A stretch of DNA of 64,000 nucleotides from assembly GCA_029269725.1 (NCBI GenBank), contig JARJHS010000007.1:1-64000 (forward strand). Direction: 5' to 3'. Below, one piece after another: positions 3,470 through 62,819 of this stretch. The translations under genes and the position numbers were made by a program. A model generated the notes under the pieces. The model was not told where the DNA came from and searched no databases. It was given only the letters and a program-made list of their open reading frames with translations. The stretch comes from Pollutibacter soli (GTDB taxonomy: Bacteria; Bacteroidota; Bacteroidia; Chitinophagales; Chitinophagaceae). Position 1 is the stretch's first letter; each line of letters starts with the position of its first letter.

Positions 3470-4373
3470 GTTGGTGTTTCCCGGAAAACCGATGACTTTT
3501 TAATTAGTATATACAAAGGGAGAGCACGGACAAGACATTGTGGTCTGCCATAGTTGTTGGTGTTCCCTTAAGTAACTTAAATTTTGATATTCCTGGGAAC
3601 TTCGGAAAACACCAGCAACGGATGATTCACACGCCTTTCCTTTAATGGTGTTTCGCCGGCAATGAAATATTCTCAACATTTGCAGAGATTGGTGAGCACC
3701 AGTAAAGCTTCGTAATCAACAAAAGATGTTGGTGTTCCGTCGAGTCGTTTACATTTTAGTGGCCTTGAGAATTCCGGAAACACCAACAACGGATGAGCAT
3801 ACACAAAGGCGGGCATGTATAAAACATGGTGGTCTGCAACAGTCGTTGGTGTTCCCTTAAGTAGCTTAAATTTTTATATTCCTGGGAACTTCGGAAAACA
3901 CCAACAACGGATGAGTCACACGCCTTTCCTTTAATGGTGTTTCGCCGGCAATGAAATATTCTCAACATTTGCAGAGATTGGTAGTCATCAATAAAGCTTC
4001 GTAATCAACAAAAGATGTTGGTGTTCCGTCGAGTCGTTTACATTTTAGTGGCCTTGAAAATTCCGGGAAACACCAACAACGGATGGGCATACACAAAGGC
4101 GGGCATGTATAAAACATGGTGATCTGCAACAGTCGTTGATGTTCCCTTAAGTAGCTTAAATTTTGGTATTCCTGGGAACTTCGGAAAACACCAACAACGG
4201 ATGAGTCACCCGCCTTTCCTTTAATGGTGTTTCGCCGGCAATGAAATATTCTCAACATTTGCAGAGATTGGTGAGCACCAGTAAAGCTTCGTAACCAACA
4301 AACGATGTTGGTGTTCCGTCGAGTCGTTTACATTTTAGTGGCCTTGAGAATTCCGGGAAACACCAACAACGGA
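3470..4373. repeat. Six-hairpin tandem repeat block with perfect terminal inverted repeats
   Basis: A unit of about 290 bp is repeated three times (equivalent points at 3556, 3845 and 4135). Each unit carries two different hairpins, A (arms GTTGGTGTTCCC and GGGAACTTCGGAAAACACC) and B (arms GTTGGTGTTCCG and CCGGGAAACACCAAC), giving A-B-A-B-A-B. The whole block is bounded by GTTGGTGTTTCCCGG at 3470-3484 and its exact reverse complement at 4353-4367. No protein is supported: open frames on the minus strand simply repeat the unit and differ between copies. It resembles a non-autonomous mobile element or a tandem structured-RNA locus. Confidence 0.8.
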
Positions 4374-6795: not shown

Positions 6796-7034
6796 GTTTA
6801 ACGTAAAACGTATAACGTGTAACGCAGGCTTTCGCGGATGTGATAACCTACGTAGGTGCCAGATTAAAGTAGGTTAGCTCTACATTCATAGGACGCGTTT
6901 AACGTTTAACGTAAAACGTATAACGTATAACGCAAGCTTTCGCGGAAGTGATAACCTGAATGTGTGCCAGCTTATCCAGATGTTAGTTGAACTCTCTTAG
7001 GCTTACGTTCAACGTTTAACGTTCAGCGTTAAAC
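6796..7034. repeat. Heptamer arrays and a duplicated composite repeat
   Basis: Three arrays of a 7-nt unit (NNAACGT or its relative ACGTTNA) lie at 6796-6825, 6897-6932 and 7003-7034. The first two arrays are each followed by nearly the same sequence (CGCAGGCTTTCGCGGATG versus CGCAAGCTTTCGCGGAAG, then TGATAACCT), so a composite unit of about 100 bp has been duplicated. The gap between the two flanking genes holds nothing else. Confidence 0.8.
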
Positions 7035-11187: not shown

Positions 11188-11214
11188 TTTAACGTAGAAC
11201 GTAGAACGTAAAAC
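11188..11214. repeat. Heptamer array (NNAACGT)
   Basis: Four units of the 7-nt AACGT-type repeat sit alone in the gap between the DUF4920 gene and the sigma-factor operon. The remainder of 11152-11399 shows no supported gene. Confidence 0.65.
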
Positions 11215-12618: not shown

Positions 12619-12650
12619 GAACGTAAAACGTATAACGTTTAACGTAAAAC
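12619..12650. repeat. Heptamer array (NNAACGT)
   Basis: Four or five 7-nt AACGT-type units lie between the divergent sigma-factor operon and the ArsC-like gene, followed by looser heptamer-like AACCTTTAACTTT sequence. Confidence 0.6.
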
Positions 12651-16411: not shown

Positions 16412-16551
16412 GTACCCGCGGTTACGGAGCCAATCCGGGGTGATAATTATTTTATTTTAGATCAGAAGTACATGGCTGGCAATTTTCGTTAAAGACAAAA
16501 TTCAACACAATTAAAATCGGTATTGAAATCAAATGACTTTCGTTTGTTAGT

Positions 16552-16591
16552 AAAAATGTAGGGACGCCATACATGGCGTCCCTACATTTTT
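16552..16591. repeat. 40-bp perfect palindrome (GGGACGCCAT family)
   Basis: Two exactly complementary 19-nt arms surround a 2-nt centre. The core GTAGGGACGCCAT/ATGGCGTCCCTAC is clearly related to the ATGCAT-centred palindromes at 40093, 43227 and, inside a gene, 62490. The T-tract at each end would also let it act as a two-way terminator. Confidence 0.85.
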
Positions 16592-16657
16592 GCAGGATGA
16601 TTTATTTCATCTAAAAAATATAAACTAACAACCCGGCCTGCAGGCGGCCACAAACAG

Positions 16658-18811: not shown

Positions 18812-18898
18812 CTTTAACGTAAAACGTTTAACGTAGAACGTAAAACGTAAGACGGCGGCACGCTACGAATACAACGAACAACGAAGAACGAACAACGA
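18812..18898. repeat. Two different heptamer arrays in tandem
   Basis: An AACGT-type array (18812-18850) is followed, after a GC-rich spacer, by four units of ANAACGA (18871-18898). Both have a 7-nt period and share the AACG core. The 18770-18960 gap has no gene. Confidence 0.75.
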
Positions 18899-18960
18899 TC
18901 AAAAAAAGAATAGGAAAATACCTGCCGATTGCTTAAATTAAGAAAGCTAAATCCCCTTTT

Positions 18961-38031: not shown

Positions 38032-40074
38032 ATGAAATTCTTTGTTCTACTTATCGCATTAATGATTCAGCTGGTACATAGTTCACCGGCGCAGGTTAGT
38101 GACAGGCAGCGACTCGATTCAATAAAGATGGCGATAAATGTGGCGGAGAATGATGAGAAAAAACTTGACCTGATGTTAGATGCCATCATGATCCACAGCT
38201 GGTATGATCTTCCGGATGCGTTTGTGTTTGAACAGGAAGCTTTTTCACTCGCCGATAAAACAGGGAATCAGAAAAAAATCGCGGAGCTCCATTATCGCAT
38301 AGGGCGGGTTCACTGGCGGCGTGGAAATTTTAAGGTAGCGCTGGACAATCATTTCAAATCATTGAAAATTTTCAGATCACTGGGAGAATCAAAAATGATT
38401 TCCAACGTGATGATTTCTATTGCACAGGACTACCTGGATTCCGGCAGTTACCAGGAGGCTAAGAAGTATCTTGCCGATGCCCTGCAATATGCCCGGGAAA
38501 TTGGCGAAAAGCGAAATGTCTGTGCAGTATATGACATACAGGCTTACCTGTATGAAATGGAAGGAAATACAACGGAATCTGCAAAGGCACTCTTTGAGTA
38601 TCTGAAGATTACAGAAGAACTGGGCGATAAAGTAGGAATAGCGCACGGGGCCATCGGTCTTGGATTGAACATGTATAAAATGGAGAACGAGATCGATGCT
38701 TTAAAATATTTCCGTATGGCCATCAAGGCTTTTCGTGAAACCGGTGAACACGACGAGATTCCGTATGTCGAAAGTCTGATTGGTGATATCTATAAAAAAA
38801 ACGGCAATCCGGCAGAAGCGCTAAAGCATTACCAGCAAGGGCTTAAGGTTGCGGAAGAGCAGGCAAGTGCGCAGTCCATTGCACATGCATATAACAGTCT
38901 AGGCGGCTTTTATCTGCAACAGCAAAATTTTGCTGAGTCGCGGAAGAATTTTCTGATTGCTCTGGAGCGTTACCGATCAGTTTCGAACAGAGGCGCAATA
39001 GCGAATGTATTTGTTGCGCTTGGCGGTGTTTATACGGGATTGAAAGAGTATCGTCTTGCAAAAATTTCATTTGACAGTGCGAGGAGTTACAGCAAAGATC
39101 TGAAAAGCAGTCTTTTTGATCGCGATTATTATCATGGTGTTCAGTTGCTCGATAGTGCAACGGGCAACTGGAAGAATGCCTATCTCAATTACCGTCAGTT
39201 TACTGTTGCGCGCGACAGTACATTCAATAGCGAAACGCTGAAAAAACTGGTCGCTTCACAAATGCAATATGAGAGTGATAAGAAAACAGCGGAGGCGAAA
39301 GCTGAACAGGAGAAAAAGGATGTACTTGCTGCTGCAAAACTAAGGCGACAAAGGAACATTCGTAATTTCAGCATTGCAGGGCTCGCGCTGGCCATAGCAT
39401 TTACGGTTGTGGTTTACCGTCAGCGAAATAAACTGGCCGTGGAGAAAAAGAGAACGGATGACCTGCTGAAGGATAAAGAATTGCTTTTGCGGGAAATTCA
39501 TCATCGCGTAAAAAACAATCTCGAAGTTGTGAGTAGTCTGCTTGCATTGCAGAGCGCACAGATCGACGATCCTAATACGAAAGACGCTATGCTGGCCGGG
39601 CAGAACAGGGTTCAATCCATCGGCATCGTACATCAGAAATTATACCAGGGAGATGCGCTGGGTACAATTGAAATGAAAGACTATTTCATCAATCTGAGCG
39701 AAAGCATTCTTGATTCTTTTGGAGCAGAAGGCCGCGTACAGGTGGAGTGTGCGATGGAGCGGCTGAATGTCGATATTGATACAGCGGTCCCGCTGGGATT
39801 GATTGTAAATGAACTACTCACCAATACGCTCAAATATGCATTTCCCAATGGGCGTGATGGAAAGGTGCAGATCAGTTTACAGAAAAAGGAAAAAGGCATT
39901 CTTCAGTTGGTGGTTTCTGATAATGGGGTCGGTAAAAATGGCGATACCAAAGGAACCGGCTTCGGAGGTCAGCTCGTTGCGTTGTTAACTACACAGCTCA
40001 ACGGAACGATGAAGGAGGTATCTGCTAACGGAACGCATTTGTATTTTGAGTTTAAAGTCGACCGGGCAGCTTAG
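38032..40074 (+). CDS. TPR-containing HisKA_2 sensor kinase
   Basis: The 680-residue protein has a signal peptide ([19 protein letters not shown]), tetratricopeptide repeats (about 60-390; for example [24 protein letters not shown]) and a membrane segment ([17 protein letters not shown]). Its kinase core is of the HisKA_2 type, with [20 protein letters not shown] (488-507) and ATP-binding motifs [13 protein letters not shown] and DNGVGKNG. The TPR part would lie in the periplasm and read a protein or peptide signal. Signal flow to the adjacent LytTR regulator is expected. Unlike the other kinases here it does not have the EKMASLGELTAG cassette. Confidence 0.9.
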
Positions 40075-40092
40075 GGAAGGCAGGAGGCAGGC

Positions 40093-40134
40093 GTTGATTG
40101 TAGAAACGCGATGCATCGCGTCTCTACAATCAAC
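40093..40134. repeat. 42-bp palindrome centred on ATGCAT
   Basis: Two 21-nt arms are complementary at 20 positions; the core is ACGCGATGCATCGCGT. The same element occurs at 43227-43268 and in diverged form inside a gene at 62490-62531. The rest of the 40075-40468 gap is C/T-rich, with no supported gene. Confidence 0.9.
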
Positions 40135-40468
40135 CAGTTTCTGACTTTGCCAATTTTCTCTTCATTCCAGTTTTCAGTTTCGCCTTTCTTCACTGTTGCT
40201 GTTTTCTGTTTCTGTTTCTCTCCATGTATTCTCCGAAAATTTTTCTTCCCTCTCCGGACAACATTTCCCCGGCTTCGTCCAATCGCCAGTATCGCTGCTT
40301 AAAATAAGGTGTAGGTTTAAAATGCGATTATCTCCGGATTAGCAGCCGTAACATTGAGGATTTCACTTATATCCATTTTCAAACAGCTGCAGAGTCCGGC
40401 TAATCGTTTTGATGCCATTCCCCATCCCCTGAAAATGTCCATTTCTCTTACTGGTTAAATTATTTCAA

Positions 40469-40969
40469 ATGAAAAGAGAATACAGGTCTGTTTTGGTGTG
40501 GATTTTCACTGGCGCTTTACTCATTGCGGGTTGTGAATCCGAAAAGAATGATGGCATGGTGGAAGAGAATATCCGCATATACAGCAATGCCTGGGATGAA
40601 ATTGCCAACAAAGGAAATCTGCTTGTTTTTGATTCCGCATTCGCGCCTGCAGTTGTGTACGACAATGTTACCACTCATCTGCAGGGGGTTGACGCAGTTC
40701 GGAAATATTTCAGCGAATATGTAACCGGATTTTCAAACCGTGATTTCAAAGTGCTGGAAATTTACGGGCAGGGCGACCATGTAATCAAGCGCTGGTCATT
40801 TACAGGTACGCATACCGGTGACTTTGCCGGAATTAAACCCACAGGAAAACGAATTACTGTTGAAGGAGTTACTATCGCCAGAATGGTGAATGGGAAAATT
40901 ACTGAAGAAAGGGATTACGCTGATGACCTGGGACTGATGCAAAAACTTGGGGTAATTCCACCGATGTGA
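40469..40969 (+). CDS. NTF2-like/SnoaL-type lipoprotein
   Basis: The 166-residue protein starts with a hydrophobic stretch and lipobox LLIAGCES, so it should be lipid-anchored. The mature part is a SnoaL/ester-cyclase-type NTF2 fold: VEENIRIYSNAWDEIANKGNLLVFDSAFAPAVVYDN, HVIKRWSFTGTHTGDFAGIKPTGKRITVEGVTIARMVNGKITEERDYAD. This pattern (the GIxPTGKxI run) marks the SnoaL-like polyketide cyclase group. The substrate is unknown. A decayed NTF2-like gene follows at once. Confidence 0.75.
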   Translation: MKREYRSVLVWIFTGALLIAGCESEKNDGMVEENIRIYSNAWDEIANKGNLLVFDSAFAPAVVYDNVTTHLQGVDAVRKYFSEYVTGFSNRDFKVLEIYGQGDHVIKRWSFTGTHTGDFAGIKPTGKRITVEGVTIARMVNGKITEERDYADDLGLMQKLGVIPPM

Positions 40970-41012
40970 TGTTGGCCCCTCACATTTCCAGGTGGTTTTA
41001 TAAAAACGGTGT

Positions 41013-41532
41013 ATGAAGTAAAAAACTGTTTCGTTATGGCTGTTGCTCTGCGCGATCATTCCTTACTTTTCTGCGGAGATGGTCAGTTAAAAACGATGGA
41101 ACTAAAACCTGTTGCTTATCTTCATACAACTGAATCGGACTCTATCGCAGTTAAAAAAATTGTTGAGGTTTTTTTGTTGCATTCGATGAAAAAGATACGG
41201 CGTCACTCCGCAGAATATTGATTCCGGAAACACGCATCACCCATCAGAATGGCGCAATGACAAATACGCAGGAAATGATCGCGGTAATCAACGAAACCCG
41301 AAACTGGTGGCCAGGACAAAGGCAATTGTCGGATTTTGAATTCCTGTCTGCCGGTGATCTTTTTGTGCTTCAACTTTCAAATGAAGTTTTTTTTCGTTTA
41401 CCTGAAAACAGATCAGTAACAGAGCCATACCGGGAAACCTGGATTTTTAAAAGATCGGGCCCCGGCTGGCAACCCATCCGGGTGCACTACTCAAAAGTGA
41501 CGGTAGAAAAACACGCTGAAGAAGTGAATTAA
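41013..41532 (+). pseudogene. Decayed exported NTF2-like gene
   Basis: Three frames together rebuild one protein. Frame one (from ATG 41013) encodes a signal peptide (KTVSLWLLLCAIIPYFSA) but has TAA as third codon and runs into a stop. Frame two gives KTMELKPVAYLHTTESDSIAVKKIVEVF. Frame three, after a T7 run (41169-41175), gives VAFDEKDTASLRRILIPETRITHQNG and the rest of an NTF2-like domain to NETRNWWPGQRQLSD and HYSKVTVEKHAEEVN. Each frame change is equal to loss of one base. With a nonsense codon and two shifts a sequencing slip alone is unlikely. It neighbours an intact lipoprotein of similar fold. Confidence 0.8.
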
Positions 41533-41726
41533 TTAAGACCTCAATTTGCTGAAATCAGAATAAATCAAAACAAGGCGGCCGGTTAACTATTAAAAAAATT
41601 CTTTTGGAAGTTCATGCAAATACGTAAGATATTTTTTTATGATGATGATACCACTCGTTTCATTGCATTCTATCCAACTTGTATTGTAAAGTTTTTTTGA
41701 AGTGAACTACGATTCATTCAATAATC

Positions 41727-42899
41727 ATGACAATATCGACAAATAAACGAATCGGTTCCATCGATCTGCTGAAAGGATTGGTGATGGTCATCATGGCGCT
41801 TGATCATGTCCGTGATTATTTCCATAAGGATGCATTTTATTTCGATCCTTCCGATCCTGCATTTACTACACTTCCGCTGTTCTTCACCCGCTGGATCACT
41901 AATTTCTGCGCACCAGCATTTTCATTTCTTGCTGGACTTTCAGCATTTTTTGTAGGTCGTCGGAAAAACAAAAAAGAGCTTTCTGTCTTTTTAGCAAAGC
42001 GCGGACTCTGGCTCGTGATTATTGAATGGACGATTGTGAACTTTGCCTGGTATTTTGATTTGAAATTCAGAACGCCGGGTTTGCTGGTGATCTGGGCCCT
42101 GGGTATAAGCATGCTCGTTCTTGCACTGCTGGTGCATCTTCCCTACAGAGCCATCCTGATCTTCAGCCTGGTTTTGATTTTTGGTCATAACCTGCTGGAT
42201 CCGGTTCAGTTCGAAAACAATATGCTCTGGTCGGCTTTACACCAGGCGCACATTTTTGAATTTGGAAACGGCATTAAATTTTACATCGATTATCCGGTGA
42301 TTCCCTGGATGGCGGTGATGTCATTAGGATACTGTTTCGGCAGATTTTATGCACCGAATGTGGACCCTATGCGAAGGAGAAAAACACTCAACCTGCTGGG
42401 GCTTTTTTCAATATTGACTTTTATCATCATTCGTGGAATAAATCAGTATGGCGACCCGGTTCACTGGAAAGAATATGATACATTTATACAGACAGGTATG
42501 TCGTTCCTGGCAGCTACCAAGTACCCGCCTTCACTTTGTTATTTATTGATGACGCTCGGTCCTGCTTTTATATTTCTTGCAAACAGTGAAAGCTGGAAAG
42601 GACGCATGGTAAGTTTCTTCAGTGTTTTCGGGCGCGTGCCTTTCTTTTACTATATACTTCATCTTTACCTCATCCATGTATTGGCAGTAATTACGGGGCT
42701 GCTGACCGGTTATGGATGGAAACTACTGGTGCTCACCGACTGGGTCATAATGATACCTGACCTTAAAGGATATGGCGTTAACCTCTGGATGGTTTATCTG
42801 GTGTGGATCTTCGTAATCGCAATCCTCTATCCTTTTTGCAAAAAATTCGACAACTATAAATTGAATCATAAGGAAAAATGGTGGATGAGTTATTTATAG
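41727..42899 (+). CDS. DUF1624/heparan-acetyltransferase-like membrane protein
   Basis: This polytopic protein of 390 residues has about ten membrane segments. The N-terminus (KRIGSIDLLKGLVMVIMALDHVRDYFH) is the DUF1624 signature with the conserved Asp/His pair, followed by FTRWITNFCAPAFSFLAGLSAFF. The HGSNAT-like group transfers acetyl groups from cytosolic acetyl-CoA to amino sugars across the membrane; the bacterial branch is mostly uncharacterised. The C-terminal part keeps GRVPFFYYILHLYLIHVLAV, also typical of acyltransferase-3-like folds. It is monocistronic; its 3' gap is full of repeats. Confidence 0.8.
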   Translation: MTISTNKRIGSIDLLKGLVMVIMALDHVRDYFHKDAFYFDPSDPAFTTLPLFFTRWITNFCAPAFSFLAGLSAFFVGRRKNKKELSVFLAKRGLWLVIIEWTIVNFAWYFDLKFRTPGLLVIWALGISMLVLALLVHLPYRAILIFSLVLIFGHNLLDPVQFENNMLWSALHQAHIFEFGNGIKFYIDYPVIPWMAVMSLGYCFGRFYAPNVDPMRRRKTLNLLGLFSILTFIIIRGINQYGDPVHWKEYDTFIQTGMSFLAATKYPPSLCYLLMTLGPAFIFLANSESWKGRMVSFFSVFGRVPFFYYILHLYLIHVLAVITGLLTGYGWKLLVLTDWVIMIPDLKGYGVNLWMVYLVWIFVIAILYPFCKKFDNYKLNHKEKWWMSYL

Positions 42900-43447
42900 G
42901 GTGGAGAATACAGAATACGGGAAACAGGGAGAACAGGCAATAGTGAGAACAGGCAATAGTGAAATGGCAATAGGCAGGAGGGAAAGAAGAAAACGAGGAA
43001 TACAGAATACGGAATACAGTGAGCAGAAATATTGGCGTACAGGCAGAAGAAGATAGCCTTTGGAGGTTTATGGTAGAGACAACGCAGGGTTGTTTCGGTG
43101 GAAAAACAAAATCATCACTAGAAAATGAGAACGGGAACAGTGAAGAAGGCAATAGTGAGCAGGCAAGAGGTGGAACCTGGCAACAGAAAACCGGAAAGAA
43201 ATGAAGATTGACAATATATGAAGTTGGTTAATCGTAGAGACACGATGCATCGCGTCTCTACGATTAACGATTGAAAACATTTGCAGAAGGAGAAAAATAT
43301 TATTGACAACGGAAAACCGGAAAACTGGAAGATGTGAAACAGAAACAACAAAGGAAAAGGACTGGTATATGAAACTGGTTACTACCAACTATCTACTAAG
43401 TCTCCTGCCCTGCCGGCAGGCTTCGGCCTTCTGCCTAATGAATAATA
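42900..43447. repeat. Repeat-filled 548-bp gap (heptamers, palindromes, CCTGCC)
   Basis: No gene is supported here. It contains heptamers of the GAATACA type (42903-42917 and 42997-43019), GGCAATAG repeats (42936-42979), a degenerate GAGACAAC/GTTGTTTC palindrome (43076-43096) and a CCTGCCGGCAGG palindrome near 43407-43419. Sequences almost identical to these pieces appear inside the kinase genes at 48461, 48076 and 62102. Confidence 0.75.
43227..43268. repeat. 42-bp palindrome centred on ATGCAT, second copy
   Basis: Two 21-nt arms with one mismatch; the inner part CGATGCATCGCGTCTCTA is shared with 40093-40134. It is flanked by unrelated repeat sequence, so it behaves as a mobile unit. Confidence 0.9.
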
Positions 43448-46400
43448 ATGAACAACCTTACTAAAGAAATTGAAACTGAAATACTGCAGGTCTATAAGGC
43501 CGGCTGGGATCACTATTATCGTGGTGATCTGGATGCCTATGCGGATATACTGAGCGATGACTACCACGTTGTTGGGTCATCAGAAGGGGAAAATTTCGAT
43601 AGTAAAAAAGAATGGTTGGATTATTGCCGGGCTACTATTGACCAGTTTGCTGGTATTATCAAACAGGAAAACCGGCAGTTCCAGATTTTACCGGCAGGAG
43701 ATTTTGTAATGGTCGTTGAAAGAAGCGATGCTTATGTAAAGATTGAAGACGAATGGCGATTTTATTCCAAAGCAAGAATTACCACTTTACTTTCTAATGA
43801 AAAAGGGTGTTGGAAATTTTATCATCAGCATGGATCGTTCCCAGACTCACGTGCAGGCGAAGGCGAAGTAATTGCCACACAACAAATCCGAGAAGAAAAT
43901 AAGCTGTTAAAAGATGCGGTGAAACGCCGTACGATAGAACTTGAGTTTAAAAACCGCGAGCTGGCTATCGAAGCATCTTTAGAAAAGTTGCGGGCTGTGG
44001 CATTGGCCATGAGGATTCCGGATGATCTGCTGAATGTATGCAAAGTGTTGTTTAAAGAGTTAATTGAACTCGGCATCAGCCAGTTGCGTAATGCAATAAT
44101 TCAATCTTATGTTGACGAAAAAAGGTTTTTCACCGATTACGATTATTCCGATTTCTCGGGAGGTGTAGTAAGTCAGATCCCTTATAAAGGAAACAAAACA
44201 ATTGAAAGTTTCATTCAGAGGATGCGGGAATCAAAAGAAGAATTACTGGAAATTGTAATTGAAGGCAAAGAACTGGAAGAGTGGAAACATTTCAGGATTG
44301 CAAATAATGAAGATCCCGATTCGCGGCTGGACAATATCTCTGCCCTGTACTATTACAACTATTCCGTTGGAGCTGCTTCTATGGGGATTTCTACTTTTTC
44401 AATGATTACCCGGGAACAGCTTGAACTATTGAAGCGGTTCCGCAATGTTTTCGATCTTGCCTATAGCCGTTACGTTGATATCTCCAATGCAGAAGCACAG
44501 GCACGCGAAGTGGAAATTGAACTTGCGCTTGAACGTATTCGTGCACGCACGATGGCCATGCAGCAAAGTATTGAACTTCCGGAGTCTGCCTTGTTGCTTT
44601 TTCAACAGATCCAATCCCTGGGTATGCCAGCCTGGAGTGCAGGGTATTGCATTTGGGATGAAGATAAACAGGCGATCACTCTTTCCATGAGCAGTGAAGG
44701 GGTTTTACAAAAGCCATTCCGCTTGCCATTGAACGTTGACCCTTCGCTGATACATATCCGCGAAGCACATGAACGCGGTGAAATGTTTCATGTGGAAGCA
44801 GTTGGTGGCGATGAGCTTGCGGCACACTATCAATACATGCGCACGTTACCGGTTGTTGGTGAAGTATTGGATTCTATAGTCAATGCAGGACATCAGCTTC
44901 CGACATTCCAGATTTTTCATTGCGTATTCTTCTCAAAAGGGTTTCTTCTTTTTATCACCTATGAACCTGTGCCTGAAGCGCACGGTATTTTCAAGAGGTT
45001 TGGAAATGTATTTGAGCAGACGTACACGCGTTTTATCGATTTGCAAAAAGCAGAAGCGCAGGCGAGGGAAGCCCAGATTGAACTGGCGCTGGAACGTGTC
45101 CGGGCCAGGACGATGGCTATGCAACGAAGCGATGAACTTGGCGATGCATCCACCTTGCTGGATCAGCAGGTCCGTTCCCTGGGTATTGAAACCTGGGGAT
45201 GCGCATTCAATATTTACAATGAAAATGATTCCAGCGAATGGTTTAGCTCCGGGGATTCAAAAGAATTCAAACCTTATAAAGTCCCACGGGAAAATATTTT
45301 CCTTACCTACTACGAAATAGGCCGGCAAGGAGCTGAGTTTCACATAGAAGAATTTTCCGGTAAGAAATGTGAGAGGCATTATGAATATCTGTGTACCATT
45401 CCTATAATGGGGGAAGGCCTGAGGAAAGCCCGGGAAGCGGGCATTCCGTTCCCAGTCAGGCAGATCGATCATGTGGTTTACTTCAGGTATGGGTACCTGT
45501 TATTCATCACACTGGATCATGTTCCGGAAGCGCATGATATTTTCAAACGTTTTGTAAAAGTATTTGAACAGACATATACCAGATTTCTTGATCTGCAGAA
45601 AGCAGAGGCGCAGGTTCGTGAAGCAACGGTTGAAGCGGCGCTGGAACGTATACGCACACGCGCAATGGTCATGCGCACGTCGAAAGACCTTCAGCAGGTA
45701 GCCGACACGATGCATTTGCAGTTATCTGGTCTGGGTAATTCTGAACTGGAATCAACATTGATCCATTTATATCCCGATGACAGTGATAAGTTTGATGCCT
45801 GGTACACATATAAGTCTAACCACACAGGCAAAACAGTTAAAGGAAATGCTTCTGTCAGCAAAGATGGGAGTGAGTTTTCGAGAAAGGTTCTTCAACTGTA
45901 TAATAGTGGTGCTTCAACTTATGTGATCGAATCACGCGGAAGTATGTTGGAAGAATGGTACCGGCAACTGGAGGTTCTCGCACCCGCGACAATCGATTAT
46001 ACGGAAGAAGGAGAATTGATTATTCCCCCGGTACTTTATTATAATTTTTCAAGATTTTCCGGTGGAGCACTTTTGATAATAACAGAGTGCCCCGCCAGCA
46101 GGGAAGCACGTGATCTTCAGAGGCGGGCAGCAAAAGTTTTCGACCTTGCCTTTAAGCGATTCGAAGATCTGCAAAAGGCCGAACAGCAGGCAAGGGAAGC
46201 ACAGATCGAAGCCGCCCTGGAACGTGTTCGTTCTATCGCTATGAGTATGATGAAGTCTGAAGATCTGCCACAGATCTGTCAATCGGTATTTACACAACTT
46301 TTGCAACTGGGTTTTAATGATCTTCGTTCCTCACAGATATATCTGCGAAACGATGCAGAAGAGAAGTTTATCAATTACGATTATTCAAACGAACTCGGCG

Positions 46401-51228: not shown

Positions 51229-51400
51229 TACAGGATACAGAATACAGAATAGGGAACACAGGACAAAAGATGAATGAAAACCGAAAACCTGCCTGCCGGC
51301 TGCCTGTCCGGTAGGCAGTGCTGCCCGGCTGTTCAACGAACAACGAACAACGAACAACGAATAACGAACAACGAATAACCACCTGCTCCTGACCACCGAC
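51229..51400. repeat. Heptamer arrays and CTGCC hairpin between FIST and kinase genes
   Basis: GAATACA-type heptamers (51229-51262), the hairpin CTGCCTGTCCGGTAGGCAG (51300-51318), an ACAACGA heptamer array of about seven units (51333-51382) and GACAACY heptamers (about 51397-51417) follow one another. Three of the units in this window thus meet in one short gap. Confidence 0.8.
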
Positions 51401-51423
51401 AACTGACAACCGACAACTGCCAA

Positions 51424-52461
51424 ATGAATCAATACCTGGAAGCGATAAAAAAACTAGTGGAAGAAAACAGTTTGCTGACAGCAGCAGAAAGGGAGGCTTT
51501 TGTCAAAGCCATTTTATCTGCAGACAAACAGTGGAGCATAACCGATTTTAAACTTGACAGAACAGAAAAAGTAAAACGAACCACTGCAATTCTCCTTGAA
51601 GAAACAATAGAAGAGTTGGAACAAAAGAGAAAAGCAGTGGAAGAGACAAATGCTGCCTTGAAAAAAACGCTTGATGACCTGAAAGCGGCACAACAGCAAT
51701 TGATCCAATCTGAGAAGATGGCTTCGCTGGGAGAACTCACAGCGGGAATTGCGCATGAGATCCAGAACCCATTGAATTTTGTAAACAATTTCAGTGAGGT
51801 GAGTGCTGAAATGATTGATGAGGTTGCAGAGGCAGCAGGCAACAGCCCTGTTGCTCTGGAGTTACTGCGGGATATCAAAGAGAATCTTGCAAAAATAAAT
51901 CACCACGGCAAACGCGCTGATGCAATTGTGAAAGCGATGTTGCAGCATTCAAGACCAACGTTTGGAGAAAGGCGTGATACAGATCTGAATGCATTGTGTG
52001 AAGAGTACGTACGACTTTCCTATCACAATTACCGCAGCCGCGACCAGATGTTCCAGGCAGAAATTGACATCATCCTTGATCCTGCTGTTGAAACCGTCAA
52101 CCTGATTCCGCAGGATATCGGGCGTGTAATTATTAACCTGATGAACAATGCGTTCTATTTTGCTGGAAATATGGGTAGAGACAAGGCAGGACCTGTTTCC
52201 GGGGATGTAAATAAAATTATTGTAACGACACGTCGTAATGCCGGCACTATTGAGATAACGGTAACGGATAACGGAACCGGAATAGCGGCGAAAAACATCA
52301 GCAAAATATTTCAACCATTTTTTACAACAAAGCCTACGGGCCAGGGAACCGGTTTAGGACTAAGCCTGGCTTACGATATAATTAAAGCTCATAGCGGTGA
52401 GCTTGCTGTCAGATCAACCGAAGGTGCCGGTTCGACATTTACCATCACTTTACCTGCGTAA
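51424..52461 (+). CDS. Soluble histidine kinase without its own sensor domain
   Basis: The 345-residue protein has only an N-terminal helical segment (1-90, coiled coil LEETIEELEQKRKAVEETNAALK) before the kinase core EKMASLGELTAGIAHEIQ (His111), INHHGKRADAIV, N-box NLMNNAFYF and GTGLGLSLAYDI. It has no membrane segment and no recognised input domain, so it must take its signal from another protein; the two FIST genes just upstream are the obvious candidates. The next gene starts 2 bp after its stop codon. It is also the shortest, insertion-free version of the cassette, useful for comparing loops. Confidence 0.88.
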   Translation: MNQYLEAIKKLVEENSLLTAAEREAFVKAILSADKQWSITDFKLDRTEKVKRTTAILLEETIEELEQKRKAVEETNAALKKTLDDLKAAQQQLIQSEKMASLGELTAGIAHEIQNPLNFVNNFSEVSAEMIDEVAEAAGNSPVALELLRDIKENLAKINHHGKRADAIVKAMLQHSRPTFGERRDTDLNALCEEYVRLSYHNYRSRDQMFQAEIDIILDPAVETVNLIPQDIGRVIINLMNNAFYFAGNMGRDKAGPVSGDVNKIIVTTRRNAGTIEITVTDNGTGIAAKNISKIFQPFFTTKPTGQGTGLGLSLAYDIIKAHSGELAVRSTEGAGSTFTITLPA

Positions 52462-52463
52462 CA

Positions 52464-55400
52464 ATGAGAAAGCTTCAATTGGTTAATTGCTTTTTACTCC
52501 GATTCACATCAGTCCACTTGCTGATCGCTTCTTTTTTGTTATCCTGCAATCAGAATACATCAGTGCCGTTTCCTGATACTGCTTTACCACAACCTAAAAC
52601 AGTACCACTGAGATTCAGTGAAGAAAAACAAATTCAGTGGACTGAAATTCCGGGCGACAGTATTGAGAATCCGGTAAAACAGACCCTGGATTTATCCAGA
52701 CTTCCTGAAAACAAATTCGTGATCAATGATTTCAAGCCTTTTACATCTGCTCCGCAACAGAAAAAATTAAACTGGAATCAGATTCCGGAGAGCATCATCA
52801 ATCTCGATACCATTACAACAGAATCTATTCCGGATATCAAAAAGAATGTATTGCCAAAGCCGGTAATCACGAGGGCAGCTATGCCTAAACTGATGGCGAA
52901 CTCTTCTTCCGGTATCATGCAGTTTTCAGAAGAAGAAGGACTGCCTGGAACAAGTGTAAATGCTTCATTGATCGATAAGCAGGGAGTCATCTGGCTGGCG
53001 GTGGGGAGAAAACTGGTACGCTACACCGGCGATCAATTATATACCTGGAGCTTTATGCCGAGGAATACAATTGCAGATGCGGCAGTGATTACCCACCTGG
53101 CGCTGGATTCCATGGGCAGAATGTGGGTGGGCACGCTCTCGGACGGAGCTTATATTCTTGATATTGATCACGACTCATTCTGGTTTTTCCCTTCCAGCGA
53201 TAGGGTGGCCGATATGCTTTGCGATCACCAGGGCATGATGTGGGTTGCATCGGTAAACCGTTCTCTGCTTCTTATCGATCCGGTAACTATGAAATTCAGA
53301 TCTGTTTTCGCGACTGATTCCCTCTTAAATGATCACCGGCCGTTAACGCTGATAGAAGATGCTGCTCATAATATCTGGCTGGGTCAGAACAATAAGATTT
53401 CCGTTATCGATTCCACACGAAAGAGGATAAAAATAATTGGGAATGATAAACTTGCCGGTCTGAATGCGGTGCTTGAATTGTACCAGGATTTAAAAGGGAA
53501 TGTATGGGTGGGATCATTCAACAGGGAGTTTTATTCGGTTTCTTTAAATGAAGATCTGATCACAACCTATAGTAAAAAGAACGGAACAAATACCAACCTT
53601 TTTGATATCACCGAAGACCGGATTGGCCGGATGTGGATCAGTGCGCGCGATACCATTTATATCATCAACAAGGACAAATCTGCTTTTAAAATCATTCCGC
53701 TCAATGCCAGAATATTCCAGAGATATAAGTCCACATTATTCACGGATCCGTCAGGAAACATCTGGGCGGGTACGCTGAACAACGGTTTGCTGGTATTCGA
53801 TGCTGACAATGTATTGCCACAGCATTTTGATAAACGAAATGGCCTTGTTGATGGAAATGTTTGGGGCACATTTGAAGAAAATGATGGCACGATCTGGATC
53901 GGCACCAACAGCGGTTTGAATATTTACAATCCGGTGACTTCTTCGATCCGGACATTGAGTAAAACCCAGGGATTGCATGGCAATGATGTTAAAGTCATCG
54001 GCAGCCTTGGTAATGATGAATTGTATGCAGGTAATATTCCGGGCTTTACCATCTTCAACAAAAAGAAAAAAACCTTTGAGAATTATGGAAAGGACCAGGG
54101 CTTTCCCCGGGCGGTATTCAGCATTACTGCAGATAGTTCCGGTAATTGGTGGGTGGCCAGTGTACCTGAGTTGATGGTCTACAACAGGGAAAAGAAAAAT
54201 CTGAAAAAACTGGATTACCATGGTGGATTGATCGGTACCGCCTGCTATGGTCTCATCACGGATAAAAAAGGTCTGTTATGGGTCGCTACGGATAGCGGAT
54301 TAATGATCATCGATCAGCATAAAAATTCAATCAGGTATCTGAGGGAGAAAGAAGGTATGCCCAGTGATTTCATATTAAAAGTAATGGAAAGTGGATCCGG
54401 GGATATATGGGTGGCTGGTATGGGTGGTATTTCCATCATCAGCACAGATAAAAACACCATCACGAATATCACCGCGAAAGAAGGTCTCCTGCCTGCTGAC
54501 ATTTATGACCTGCTGGAAAAAGATGGTATTATGTATGCGGGATCAAGCAGTGGATTATTTCAGATTTTTTTGCCGGATTCTTCGAAGGGTCCAAACAGCC
54601 ATGATAAAAAATTCCGGCTCAGGAATTTCAACAAAAAGGAAGGCTTTCCTTTTAATGATCATAACCAGATGGCGGGAATGGTCCGTCGCAATGGCGAAAT
54701 CTGGTTAGGCGTTACTCCCGTTTTGACCATACTCACGGAAACCACTAACCGAATTGACTCTGCTCCGGCGCAGGTAATGGTTACCGGTATCAGCGCATTG
54801 GATCATCCGCTGTCATTCGACACCAAAACCCAGCCACTACCAGAACTGCCGCTTACAGATTCATTAAAAAATGCGGCAGAAAAAATCCCGGCCGTTCCAA
54901 TATCTGAACAGGCTGCATTTCTAACACAAAATCGTATCCGGTACGATAGTGCAACTGCTGTTTTCCATATACCTTCGGGACTGTCATTACCGCATAACCA
55001 GAACTCTTTAAATTTCAGTTATTCAAATCCATCTATCACCGGTCGGGATAAAATAGTATATCGCTATATACTGGAAGGCGAAGATGAGGAGTGGTCTGCT
55101 GAAACACCCCGACCTTTTACACGCAATTATTATAACCTGAAGCCTGGACATTACACATTCAAAGTCGCGTCGAAAGGTTTTAACGGTGTCTGGAGCGAAC
55201 CAGCATCACTGCAATTCCCCATCAGGCCACCATGGTGGCTGACCTGGTGGGCATATATCCTGTACGCCGGTGTTTTCGCTGGTACAGCCTGGCTGGTTGC
55301 AGGCTATCGTTCACGGCGTTTGAAAAGAGAGAATCAGATTCTCGAGGAAAAAGTTACGCATCGAACAGCACAGTTGAATAAATCACTTGAAGATCTGAAG

Positions 55401-60228: not shown

Positions 60229-60771
60229 ATGAAAGTCGAAATGAAAAGAAGCTTATTAATTGTATCCATGGCAGGTTTATGGTTGCCTGCACTGTGTCAG
60301 AATAAAGTGACGGACAGCCTGGGAGTGTTATTGTCATCCGTTAAGGCGGATACAACCCGGTTGGAATTATTAGCAGAGTTAGGATTGCAATACAGGAATT
60401 CAAATCCGGACTCAGCCATCTTTTATGGAAACGAAGCACTGGCATTGGCACGGGAAATTCAGTTCAAACGAGGCGAAGTCCTGTCTCTTGCTAATATCGC
60501 AATTGCATCTCGCGAAAGAGGAGATCTGCCAGAAGCTCTCAGCATGGTGATGCAGGCATCGCAGATGGCTGAAGCAGGAAATTGCAACATTGAAAAAAGT
60601 CTTTGCCTTCGTCGGACCGGCCTCTTATATATGGATCTGAAGGATTATACGGGTTTGGGCTTGTCATTGGCTTATGATATCGTGAAAGCGCATGGCGGTG
60701 AGATAAAAGTGGAGTCAATGAAATCCAAAGGCAGTTCCTTTATTATACTAATTCCAAACCTGATGGCATGA
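60229..60771 (+). pseudogene. Internally deleted TPR histidine kinase
   Basis: Residues 1-140 are a signal peptide (LLIVSMAGLWLPALCQ) and two or three TPR units (YRNSNPDSAIFYGNEALALAREI). The sequence then goes directly from LLYMDLKDY to TGLGLSLAYDIVKAHGGEI, the last ATP-binding motif of the kinase cassette. The membrane segment, phospho-accepting His, N-box and most of the ATPase domain are missing, so it cannot be a kinase. The frame is intact to the stop, which overlaps the start of the next kinase by 4 bp. Start could be ATG 60229 or 60241. Confidence 0.8.
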
Positions 60772-62819
60772 TGAAGATTTTGCGGGTATCACATATTGTT
60801 AGTGGCATTGTTACCTGTTTGGTTTTGTCAACAACAAATACCGCATTTGCGCAGCGAGTCAATATTGATTCTGTTGTACAATTGGTTGCCAATGCAAAAG
60901 ATGACGATCAGAAACTGGCTTATACTGTTAACCTGTATAGTACTTCAATTAATAATGATCCTGAATATACCATTGAGATCGGTTTGAAATTGCTTAAGCA
61001 GGCTCAGCAGGATGGAAATGTATTGGAAAAGTCAACTGCTTATAGTTTCCTGGGTCATGGCTACCGCCTTGCCGGAAACCATGTGAAGGGACTGCAGTAT
61101 CACCATGAAGCGATCAGACTAGCTGAAGAAAATGGAAATCCATCACTGTTATGCATTGCCAACAACCAACTGGCGCATATTTACAAAGACCGGAGTGAGT
61201 TTGAAAAAGCTATCCGCATATATAAACTCTCGGCAGAAGATGGTGCGAAGGGCAGGATTGAGAAAGTGAAATATTGGCCACTCGTGAACCTGGGGGCAGT
61301 GTATCTTCTGAAAAATCAACCTGACTCAGCGGTAATCTTTACAAAGCCGGTATATGAAAAATTTAAAGACTCCGGAGATCAGAATATAAAATCATTATCC
61401 TTTATCACACTCGGTGGCGCCTATAGCAAATTAAATCAACCGGATCTTTCAACATATTATTTTCAGAAGGCTTTGTCTGAACATTCAACACAAAATAGTA
61501 AAAGGTACCTTAACATGGTATATGTTGGTTTAGCAGAACATTATCAACTCTTAAACAAACCAGACTCTGTTGAATTCTATGCCCGCAATGCAATTGACGC
61601 GGTAACGAATACGCCTTTCTTTTACCTGAGCAGCGCACCCGCAAATATGCTCTCCTCACTATACGATCCTGCAAACTGTGACAGCACACTGAAATATGCC
61701 AGGATGTATAAATCAGCTAATGATTCCCTCTACAATACCAGAGCGAACCAGCAGATTCAGATGATGACTTTTGATGAAGACATCCGGCAATACCAGTTGA
61801 ATGAAGAGAAAGAGAAATTTGTAAGCCGGGTAAAACAGTATGTTACATTGGCTGGTTTGATCACAGCGATAATTGTTGCGATGATCCTTTTCAGGAATAA
61901 CAAATTACGAAAGAAAGCAAACAATCATTTGTCGGCCACGCTGCGTGATTTAAAATCAACCCAGGCGCAACTGATTCAATCGGAAAAGATGGCGAGCCTC
62001 GGGGAACTGACTGCGGGTATTGCGCATGAGATTCAGAATCCATTAAATTTTGTAAATAATTTCAGTGAGATCAGTTCGGAATTGATAGAGGAAGCGGAGG
62101 AGGCAATAGGCAGAGGATTTTCTGCCGGACAGCCAGGGCAGGAAGCAGGAAAAAAAAGCCCATTAGTCGCAGAGTTGCTTCAGGATATCAAACAGAACCT
62201 GGTTAAAATAAACCATCACGGAAAACGCGCGGATGCTATTGTAAAAGGCATGCTGCAACACTCGCAATCGCGGTCGGGTACAAAGGAGCCAACGGATATT
62301 AACGCATTGGTTGATGAATATTTGAGATTAGCATACATCAGTTATCAGTCAAAATATCCGGATTTTGAAGCAAAGATGGAAACCAGTTTCGATGCATCAG
62401 CCGGGGAGATAAATATTATACCCCAGGATATCGGAAAGGCATTGCTGAACCTGTACAGCAACGCGTTTTATGCATGCAATCATCGTGATGTTAATCCTGG
62501 AGACGCCATGCATGACGCCTCCAGGATTAACACAAGCGTCACTACCATAAACACTACGATGATAGAAAACATTATCTCGGTGTCCACCAAACGCATGGCC
62601 GATAAAATTGAAATAACGGTAACGGATAACGGCGGAGGCATCGATCCGAAAATCATCGATAAAATATTTCAGCCATTCTTTACTACAAAGCCCACCGGGC
62701 AGGGAACGGGTTTGGGATTAAGCCTGGCTTATGACATTATAAAAGCCTACGGCGGAAAAATCGAGGTGGAATCAAAACAGGGAGAAGGAACAGTATTTAC
62801 CCTGGTACTTCCCGTGTAA
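60768..62819 (+). CDS. TPR-containing sensor histidine kinase
   Basis: The 683-residue protein has a signal peptide (IVTCLVLSTTNTAFAQ), TPR repeats (about 50-330; SFLGHGYRLAGNHVKGLQYHHEAIRLAEE), a membrane segment (YVTLAGLITAIIVAMILF) and the EKMASLGELTAGIAHEIQ kinase core (His420), INHHGKRADAIVKGMLQHS, N-box NLYSNAFYAC and GTGLGLSLAYDIIKAYGG. It probably shares ancestry with the deleted gene just upstream. Two loops of the core carry insertions of repeat type: residues near 445-462 (from 62102) and 575-588 (the 42-bp palindrome at 62490). It overlaps the previous frame by 4 bp. Confidence 0.9.
   Translation: MMKILRVSHIVSGIVTCLVLSTTNTAFAQRVNIDSVVQLVANAKDDDQKLAYTVNLYSTSINNDPEYTIEIGLKLLKQAQQDGNVLEKSTAYSFLGHGYRLAGNHVKGLQYHHEAIRLAEENGNPSLLCIANNQLAHIYKDRSEFEKAIRIYKLSAEDGAKGRIEKVKYWPLVNLGAVYLLKNQPDSAVIFTKPVYEKFKDSGDQNIKSLSFITLGGAYSKLNQPDLSTYYFQKALSEHSTQNSKRYLNMVYVGLAEHYQLLNKPDSVEFYARNAIDAVTNTPFFYLSSAPANMLSSLYDPANCDSTLKYARMYKSANDSLYNTRANQQIQMMTFDEDIRQYQLNEEKEKFVSRVKQYVTLAGLITAIIVAMILFRNNKLRKKANNHLSATLRDLKSTQAQLIQSEKMASLGELTAGIAHEIQNPLNFVNNFSEISSELIEEAEEAIGRGFSAGQPGQEAGKKSPLVAELLQDIKQNLVKINHHGKRADAIVKGMLQHSQSRSGTKEPTDINALVDEYLRLAYISYQSKYPDFEAKMETSFDASAGEINIIPQDIGKALLNLYSNAFYACNHRDVNPGDAMHDASRINTSVTTINTTMIENIISVSTKRMADKIEITVTDNGGGIDPKIIDKIFQPFFTTKPTGQGTGLGLSLAYDIIKAYGGKIEVESKQGEGTVFTLVLPV
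62102..62150 (+). repeat. Repeat-like stretch inside the TPR kinase gene (DHp loop)
   Basis: GGCAATAGGCAG at 62102-62113 also occurs in the gap at 42966-42977, and CTGCCGGACAG with a GGGCAGG partner follows, as in the CTGCC hairpins. It encodes IGRGFSAGQPGQEAG, between the two DHp helices. Confidence 0.55.
62490..62531 (+). repeat. 42-bp ATGCAT palindrome inside the TPR kinase gene
   Basis: Two 21-nt arms match in 19 positions, beginning GTTAATCCTGGAG and ending with its complement, centred on ATGCAT as in the intergenic copies at 40093 and 43227. The 42 bp equal 14 codons, so the frame is kept (DVNPGDAMHDASRIN) in the loop after the N-box. Confidence 0.88.

Follow-up and report, generated by a model that had tools for sequence, protein, structure and literature searches.

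A 42-bp palindrome that lies in frame within a histidine kinase gene of Pollutibacter soli belongs to a dispersed family of REP repeats, a known kind of mobile hairpin that is found here in an unusual and recurrent coding site. The kinship of the repeats and their position in one loop of the kinase domain are well supported. In the reading that we favour, with a probability of about 0.68, the element is a mobile but non-autonomous hairpin of the type known as GTAG-tagged double-foot REPs, which would be spread by a single-strand nuclease of the RAYT (TnpA-REP) type, probably one such as the product of C34:304469-305038. Insertions into genes would mostly be lost, and would survive where the 42 bp add 14 harmless residues to a flexible loop. 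The loop after the N-box helix of HisKA/HATPase_c kinases would thus have been hit in this genome late and, most likely, in four or more separate events, and a kinase of the Balneolia would have received the element independently and in another reading frame.

The window, i.e. the whole stretch of 64,000 nucleotides that was analysed, comes from contig C35 of the 6.1-Mb source genome (37 contigs). The initial annotation had reported the same palindrome in two intergenic gaps and inside a TPR kinase, and all three copies are present where it had placed them (Table 1). They form one family and not one sequence, as the kinase copy and the copy at 43227 share 33 of 42 bases. The reading frame is kept through the kinase copy, whose GTAG foot is altered to CTGG (CTGG/CCAG pair), an exception among the feet. 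A 16-base core (up to 3 mismatches) has 3 matches in the window against 0.19 expected; these are the three intergenic copies, as the kinase copy has diverged too far to fit the pattern. The longer loop that had been noted after the N-box is also borne out by alignment: the segment bounded by the N-box and the DNG motif counts 63 residues, compared to 45 in the paralogue at 52464, and the element accounts for 14 of the 18 additional residues. Rfam has no matches in 39900-43500; the 12 microRNA matches in 62400-62620 fall far under their gathering scores and were taken as generic hairpin matches. Other repeats in the window include short 7-bp arrays with differing units (6896-6932, 11191-11214, 12620-12650, 18816-18902 and 51334-51427) and a 290-bp unit present 2.9 times at 95% match (3535-4373).

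Table 1. Palindrome copies and kinase features in the window.
Feature	Position	Strand	Remarks
In-frame palindromic element, 14 codons, VNPGDAMHDASRIN	62490..62531	+	In kinase loop; 19/21 arm pairs
Intergenic family copy	40093..40134	.	20/21 pairs; covariance-model match
Intergenic family copy	43227..43268	.	20/21 pairs; covariance-model match
Fourth copy, intergenic, GTAGGGAC type	16551..16592	.	19/21 pairs; covariance-model match; absent from the initial annotation
TPR-HisKA-HATPase_c histidine kinase with element	60768..62819	+	683 aa, open
Paralogous kinase without element, short loop	52464..56180	+	Comparison used in the initial annotation
Loop stretch between N-box helix and next strand	62496..62555	+	Predicted pLDDT <50

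Across the genome, the palindromes form a family beyond what chance would give. A 22-base core, allowing up to 3 mismatches, is found at 45 places, compared to none for the reversed control, and it recovers the kinase copy with 2 mismatches. A covariance model built from 35 copies (arms of at least 19, minus one identical copy) identifies 58 distinct places at E≤0.01, a manual count from 111 strand-wise rows. In the alignment of these 35 copies 92.7% of the cells pair, a value that is inflated by their selection for long arms; both-sided changes are seen in 16 of the 23 pairs vs. 9.7 in shuffles, and slid structures reach 27-46% pairing. The four foot pairs (GTAG/CTAC) are unchanged in 34, 31, 34 and 35 of the 35 copies, and the arms outside the feet vary from copy to copy with their complementarity retained. 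The copies are locally clustered around the C35 kinases, with six in the 66 kb of C35:16.5-83 kb, compared to approximately 0.65 expected from the genome average.

Overall, the family strongly avoids coding sites, and in the source genome the tolerance is concentrated in one kinase-family loop and in RAYT genes. Since the window is approximately 84% coding by a greedy ORF estimate, random placement would give about 49 of the 58 copies in genes. The accepted in-gene copies are only those in four kinases, namely: C35:62488, C35:71431, C35:82902 and C34:365814; and those in RAYT genes or fragments, namely: one stop-free ORF and two broken pieces. It should be noted that ORF length alone was insufficient for in-gene status: long ORFs with a copy near their start (L002, L016, L021 and C23:44484), as well as short ORFs in other frames, were considered non-coding there, by judgement only, and were left uncounted. 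The chance that four of five intact in-gene copies fall in the loop is 4.7e-13, a rough guide only, as it assumes independent insertions, a rounded 60 copies with at most 8 in genes, and a loop target of 38 x 75 bp. The core of the earlier proposal, a dispersed palindrome that tolerates coding sites in a surface loop, is supported: further in-gene copies were sought and exist (kinases, RAYT genes and the Balneolia kinase), and the kinase loops that were read in relatives are without the residues. The proposal needs amending in that coding sites are avoided as a whole.

In other genomes, 22 ORFs of at least 150 residues have a copy in their interior, among the 86 copies listed. Ten of these are RAYT-like by BLASTP (a weak L156 match over 45 residues at the repeat was not counted), and eight others have Pfam domains, including a valyl-tRNA synthetase, a type I restriction subunit, a DNA methylase and one histidine kinase. 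The remaining four (L145, L146, L165 and the forward-strand L166 ORF) are without support, a domain scan of L145 and L165 having given no hit. The RAYT-like ORFs carry their copies in frame, before the HuH motif in L143 and for one of the two copies in L204. Over 25 ORF-copy rows, four of them from L166, the element is read 12 times in frame 0 (RRDAMHxVST), 13 times in frame 2 (VETxCxASL) and never in frame 1, which has a TAG in the foot. A perfect frame-0 copy gives the same peptide on both strands because its centre falls between ATG and CAT.

The source genome has 43 kinase-domain matches, some genes giving two. C35 carries 33 of them, in a very large HisKA/HATPase_c cluster at approximately 33-165 kb that begins in the window at 33 kb. 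We aligned 31 full kinase domains and read the loops of some others singly, and the genome-wide covariance search, which covers the remaining matches, revealed no copies inside kinase matches beyond four. These four, in L043 (the window kinase), L044, L045 and L053, all lie in one loop, which joins the N-box helix to the strand after it, and all are read in the same frame. No recognisable palindrome is found in the loop of the other 27 aligned domains, although L049 resembles an eroded copy (27/42 bases to the consensus) and L047 a doubtful one (21/42, where three element-free loops score 17-19). The AlphaFold2 model of the window domain (286 residues starting at 61959; 29 input rows, all from the source genome) has a mean pLDDT of 80.5 and places the element (residues 178-191) largely in a stretch, residues 180-199, that scores below 50 between a helix (155-174) and a strand (204-213). 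Thus, the loop after the N-box helix is predicted to be disordered or flexible.

The same loop is occupied in a second bacterial class. The locus L184, from a Balneolia metagenome-assembled genome, encodes a HisKA/HATPase_c kinase with a perfect copy (17-bp arms) directly after NNAFDAM, which is read in frame 2 as VETQCIASL. This kinase is identical to that at the same coordinates in G512:C110, and its nearest full-length relative is 72% identical. Because both the frame and the class differ, the insertion is an event independent of those in P. soli. The Balneolia loop is not clearly longer than those of its relatives, and the insert may therefore have replaced earlier loop sequence. G512 has 3 core copies, compared to none in five related genomes tested, and the loops read in two other G512 kinases are without the element. 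When related kinase loops were compared, the inserted residues were absent throughout. Of the 30 loci from a phylum search, the loop could be located by its motif in 23 and not in 7, and besides that of L184 itself 22 of 22 are without the element, as are all 24 rows read for the kinases of G015, G022 and G026 (15, 8 and 2 kinase matches, some genes being read twice). In 13 REP-bearing genomes, 8 kinase matches were found in 4 genomes and 6 of the 8 loops were read; the REP is present only in the L184 kinase (L331), these numbers being too few for a rate.

The initial annotation had regarded the element as a feature of the lineage. The family is instead patchy and not specific to a lineage: the exact 26-letter core matches at least 119 stretches from named genomes, yet only 3 of 39 relatives (G019, G026 and G036; up to 3 mismatches) and 9 of 394 genomes of the class (0 mismatches) have it besides the source genome. 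The same-genus genomes G015 and G022 have no core copies and G026 has one. Among the 80 listed loci (86 copies) are titles of Bacteroidota of several orders, Planctomycetaceae, Fibrimonadales, Chitinispirillia, a Desulfamplus, a Kuenenia, a Parabeggiatoa and a Wallbacteria. Some of these titles may be misbinned, since most of the records are metagenome bins and many are short contigs.

A candidate mobiliser is encoded on contig C34. The ORF at C34:304469-305038 runs without stops for 190 residues from an MSEKF methionine and has the element in frame after MPDHFHGI (the copy at C34:304815), between HuH and Y, with HRDAM/RRDAM units also upstream of it. The motifs identified by eye, namely: DHFH, WQ and YIRDNP, are near but not identical to those tabulated in PMC6006769 (NH[IFV]H, WQ and YIxNNP). 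The ORF matches NCBIfam REP_Tyr_transpos (NF047646) at 8.1e-18 and 64.7 bits, which is under the cut-off of 80. Two RAYT relatives lie 3-7 kb away, one with stops and the other a fragment. The region (C34:295200-307500, L029) therefore holds three RAYT-like pieces, each accompanied by two REP copies, one within it or at its edge and one a short way downstream, a layout that looks like a duplicated module. For the stop-free gene, the downstream copy is at C34:305148, and the nearest upstream model match is at C34:301342, approximately 3 kb away. A search with PF01797 returned four other Y1 transposases and missed the RAYT-like gene; these four were dropped as cognate enzymes, their 3.3-kb loci having no family copies in a palindrome scan. 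The NCBIfam score under the cut-off and the gene missed with PF01797 count against the favoured reading. The C34 protein may be the one that moves the kinase copies.

In-gene REPs and the insertion of REPs into RAYT genes are already published. Double-foot REPs of TnpA-REP subclass 2.4 (RAYT group 4), with GT[AG]G as their 5' and C[TC]AC as their 3' foot, are described in the main text of Quentin et al. 2018 (PMC6006769) as abundant in Cyanobacteria and Bacteroidetes, with RAYT genes carrying a REP in frame, generally between HuH and Y. The family described here shares with these the GTAG and CTAC on the two sides of one hairpin, the dispersal, and a RAYT-like gene with an in-frame REP. Unlike in the published description, covarying complementary arms extend past the feet in the copies aligned, so that GTAG stands inside the palindrome and not at its ends, which counts against the favoured reading; in addition, copies are found in a kinase loop. 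Frame-keeping palindromes within genes are likewise shared with the intragenic GTAG and CGTC REPs that, according to the main text of Di Nocera et al. 2013 (PMC3733652), keep the frame in unrelated genes, including recB of Xanthomonas, where REPs are found at about the same site. The term ‘histidine kinase’ is absent from the main text of PMC6006769, and both this term and ‘sensor kinase’ are absent from that of PMC3733652, though the supplementary tables of either could name one; in the main texts of the open-licence literature, we found no recurrent insertion site in a kinase loop. The initial annotation had compared the element with the Rickettsia palindromic elements (RPE). The comparison stands for the manner of insertion, in frame within genes, but a GTAG-tagged double-foot REP accompanied by a RAYT gene is the closer description. 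A work cited in PMC3733652 reportedly excised such an insert from a guanylate kinase of Rickettsia as a test. PMC3733652 groups RPE-4 and RPE-6 of R. conorii with the CGTC repeats, unlike the GTAG-tagged element here; CGTC is seen inside the stem of the latter.

The kinase copies could descend from separate insertions or from one. L043, L044, L045, the insert-free L046 and L047 form one clade (support 99/93), and L053 and L049 fall in other parts of the tree, which is poorly resolved. With six labelled rows (L047 and L049 taken as inserts) at least 4 changes are needed, of which well-supported branches force 2, and the insert label shows some clustering on the tree, a value as low being reached in 23 of 500 shuffles. 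A single old insertion in the ancestor of this clade, spread by gene duplication with its arms kept alike by hairpin-templated correction or short gene conversion, would agree with the clade and the clustering, with the element standing at the same codon in L044 and L045, and with the eroded and doubtful copies in L049 and L047. Furthermore, the copy nearest to both the window and the L044 elements is that of L045 (36 and 37 of 42 bases, vs. 35 for the best intergenic copy among the 56 compared); this match and the common clade are what one ancestral insertion predicts, and they count against separate ones. On the other hand, the L043, L044 and L045 elements have 31-37 of 42 bases and 11-13 of 14 third positions in common, while the fourfold sites of the genes outside the loop are identical at only 0.39, 0.46 and 0.47 for pairs within the clade and at 0.21-0.41 for pairs that include L053, i.e. 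near saturation. As the elements are far more alike than these sites, separate recent insertions are favoured over one old one. The bases directly beside the element differ at synonymous places, the L045 copy is a perfect palindrome (22/22), and the outer arms of L053 are complementary at 15/15. In addition, two both-arm changes between L043 and L045 alter residues on both sides, so that selection on the peptide does not explain the match of the arms; and neither L053 nor the Balneolia copy falls within the clade. Two further points count against the favoured reading: all four kinase copies are read in one frame, and a search of 39 relatives for an orthologue of the window kinase with an empty site gave none, the best full-length match being 45% identical. 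We regard a single old insertion with arm correction as less probable but a serious rival, and separate insertions within the source genome, late and at least four in number, as likely.

The insert might also have been recruited, the 14 residues or the hairpin in the mRNA altering the activity or expression of the kinase and being selected for it. The repeated use of one loop would fit such a role, as would the hairpin of the coding strand, which folds stably in each of four kinase copies (-25 to -39.3 kcal/mol, z -5.6 to -9.6). However, the peptide is not conserved (VNRRDAMHGVSTIN and VNPGDAMHDASRIN in P. soli, VETQCIASL in the Balneolia), one kinase of the clade is without an insert, and 27 of the 31 aligned domains show no recognisable palindrome in the loop; we consider recruitment improbable, and the insert may be near-neutral for the kinase. 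That the palindrome is a product of chance, or a native part of the loop, has in its favour that loop length is variable among these kinases. It conflicts with the genome-wide family, with the empty reversed control and with the related loops that were read without a palindrome, and we give it practically no credence.

Intergenic repeats of several kinds may find their way into the kinase loops. An exploratory test, whose period and threshold were chosen after examples had been seen, covered 56 domains selected with a motif expression, of which only 5 came from the phylum set. Tandem arrays (7-, 8- or 12-bp units; 20-of-24 match) were found in 9 of the domains, compared to none in 40 codon shuffles: 2 of 31 domains in the source genome, 7 of 20 in G015, G022 and G026, and 0 of 5 in the phylum set. 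The arrays occupy three places: the vicinity of the loop that follows the first phospho-acceptor helix, the N-box loop, and the turn ahead of the G1 box. Near domain codon 22, L044 and L045 both have RRQEAGE, which in L044 is encoded by a GCAGGAG-like 7-bp array. The heptamer (TAACTGA) arrays that the main text of PMC4679880 reports in Beggiatoaceae, Cyanobacteria and Bacteroidetes are intergenic 7-bp arrays of the general type that here also encodes some kinase loops; they are non-palindromic and a different kind of repeat from the REP, and their likeness to the arrays described here is general only. A wider and rather unlikely proposal would have the loops of the kinase superfamily act as standing acceptor sites that turn mobile or tandem intergenic repeats (REPs, 7-8-bp arrays) into protein, such that large kinase arrays like that on C35 diversify the loops of their catalytic domains from junk DNA and the REP prefers the N-box loop beyond merely surviving there.

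Taken together, the results suggest that the kinase loop readily accepts stray DNA. If the favoured reading of a RAYT-spread REP surviving in the N-box loop by separate insertions is true, these kinases would constitute a natural, repeated experiment on mobile DNA becoming protein: one hairpin repeat would have found its way into one and the same kinase loop in bacteria of two classes, with two different reading frames, and within a single genome it probably did so several times. With insert-bearing and insert-free paralogues side by side, the cost or benefit of such an insertion in a signalling enzyme would be directly measurable.
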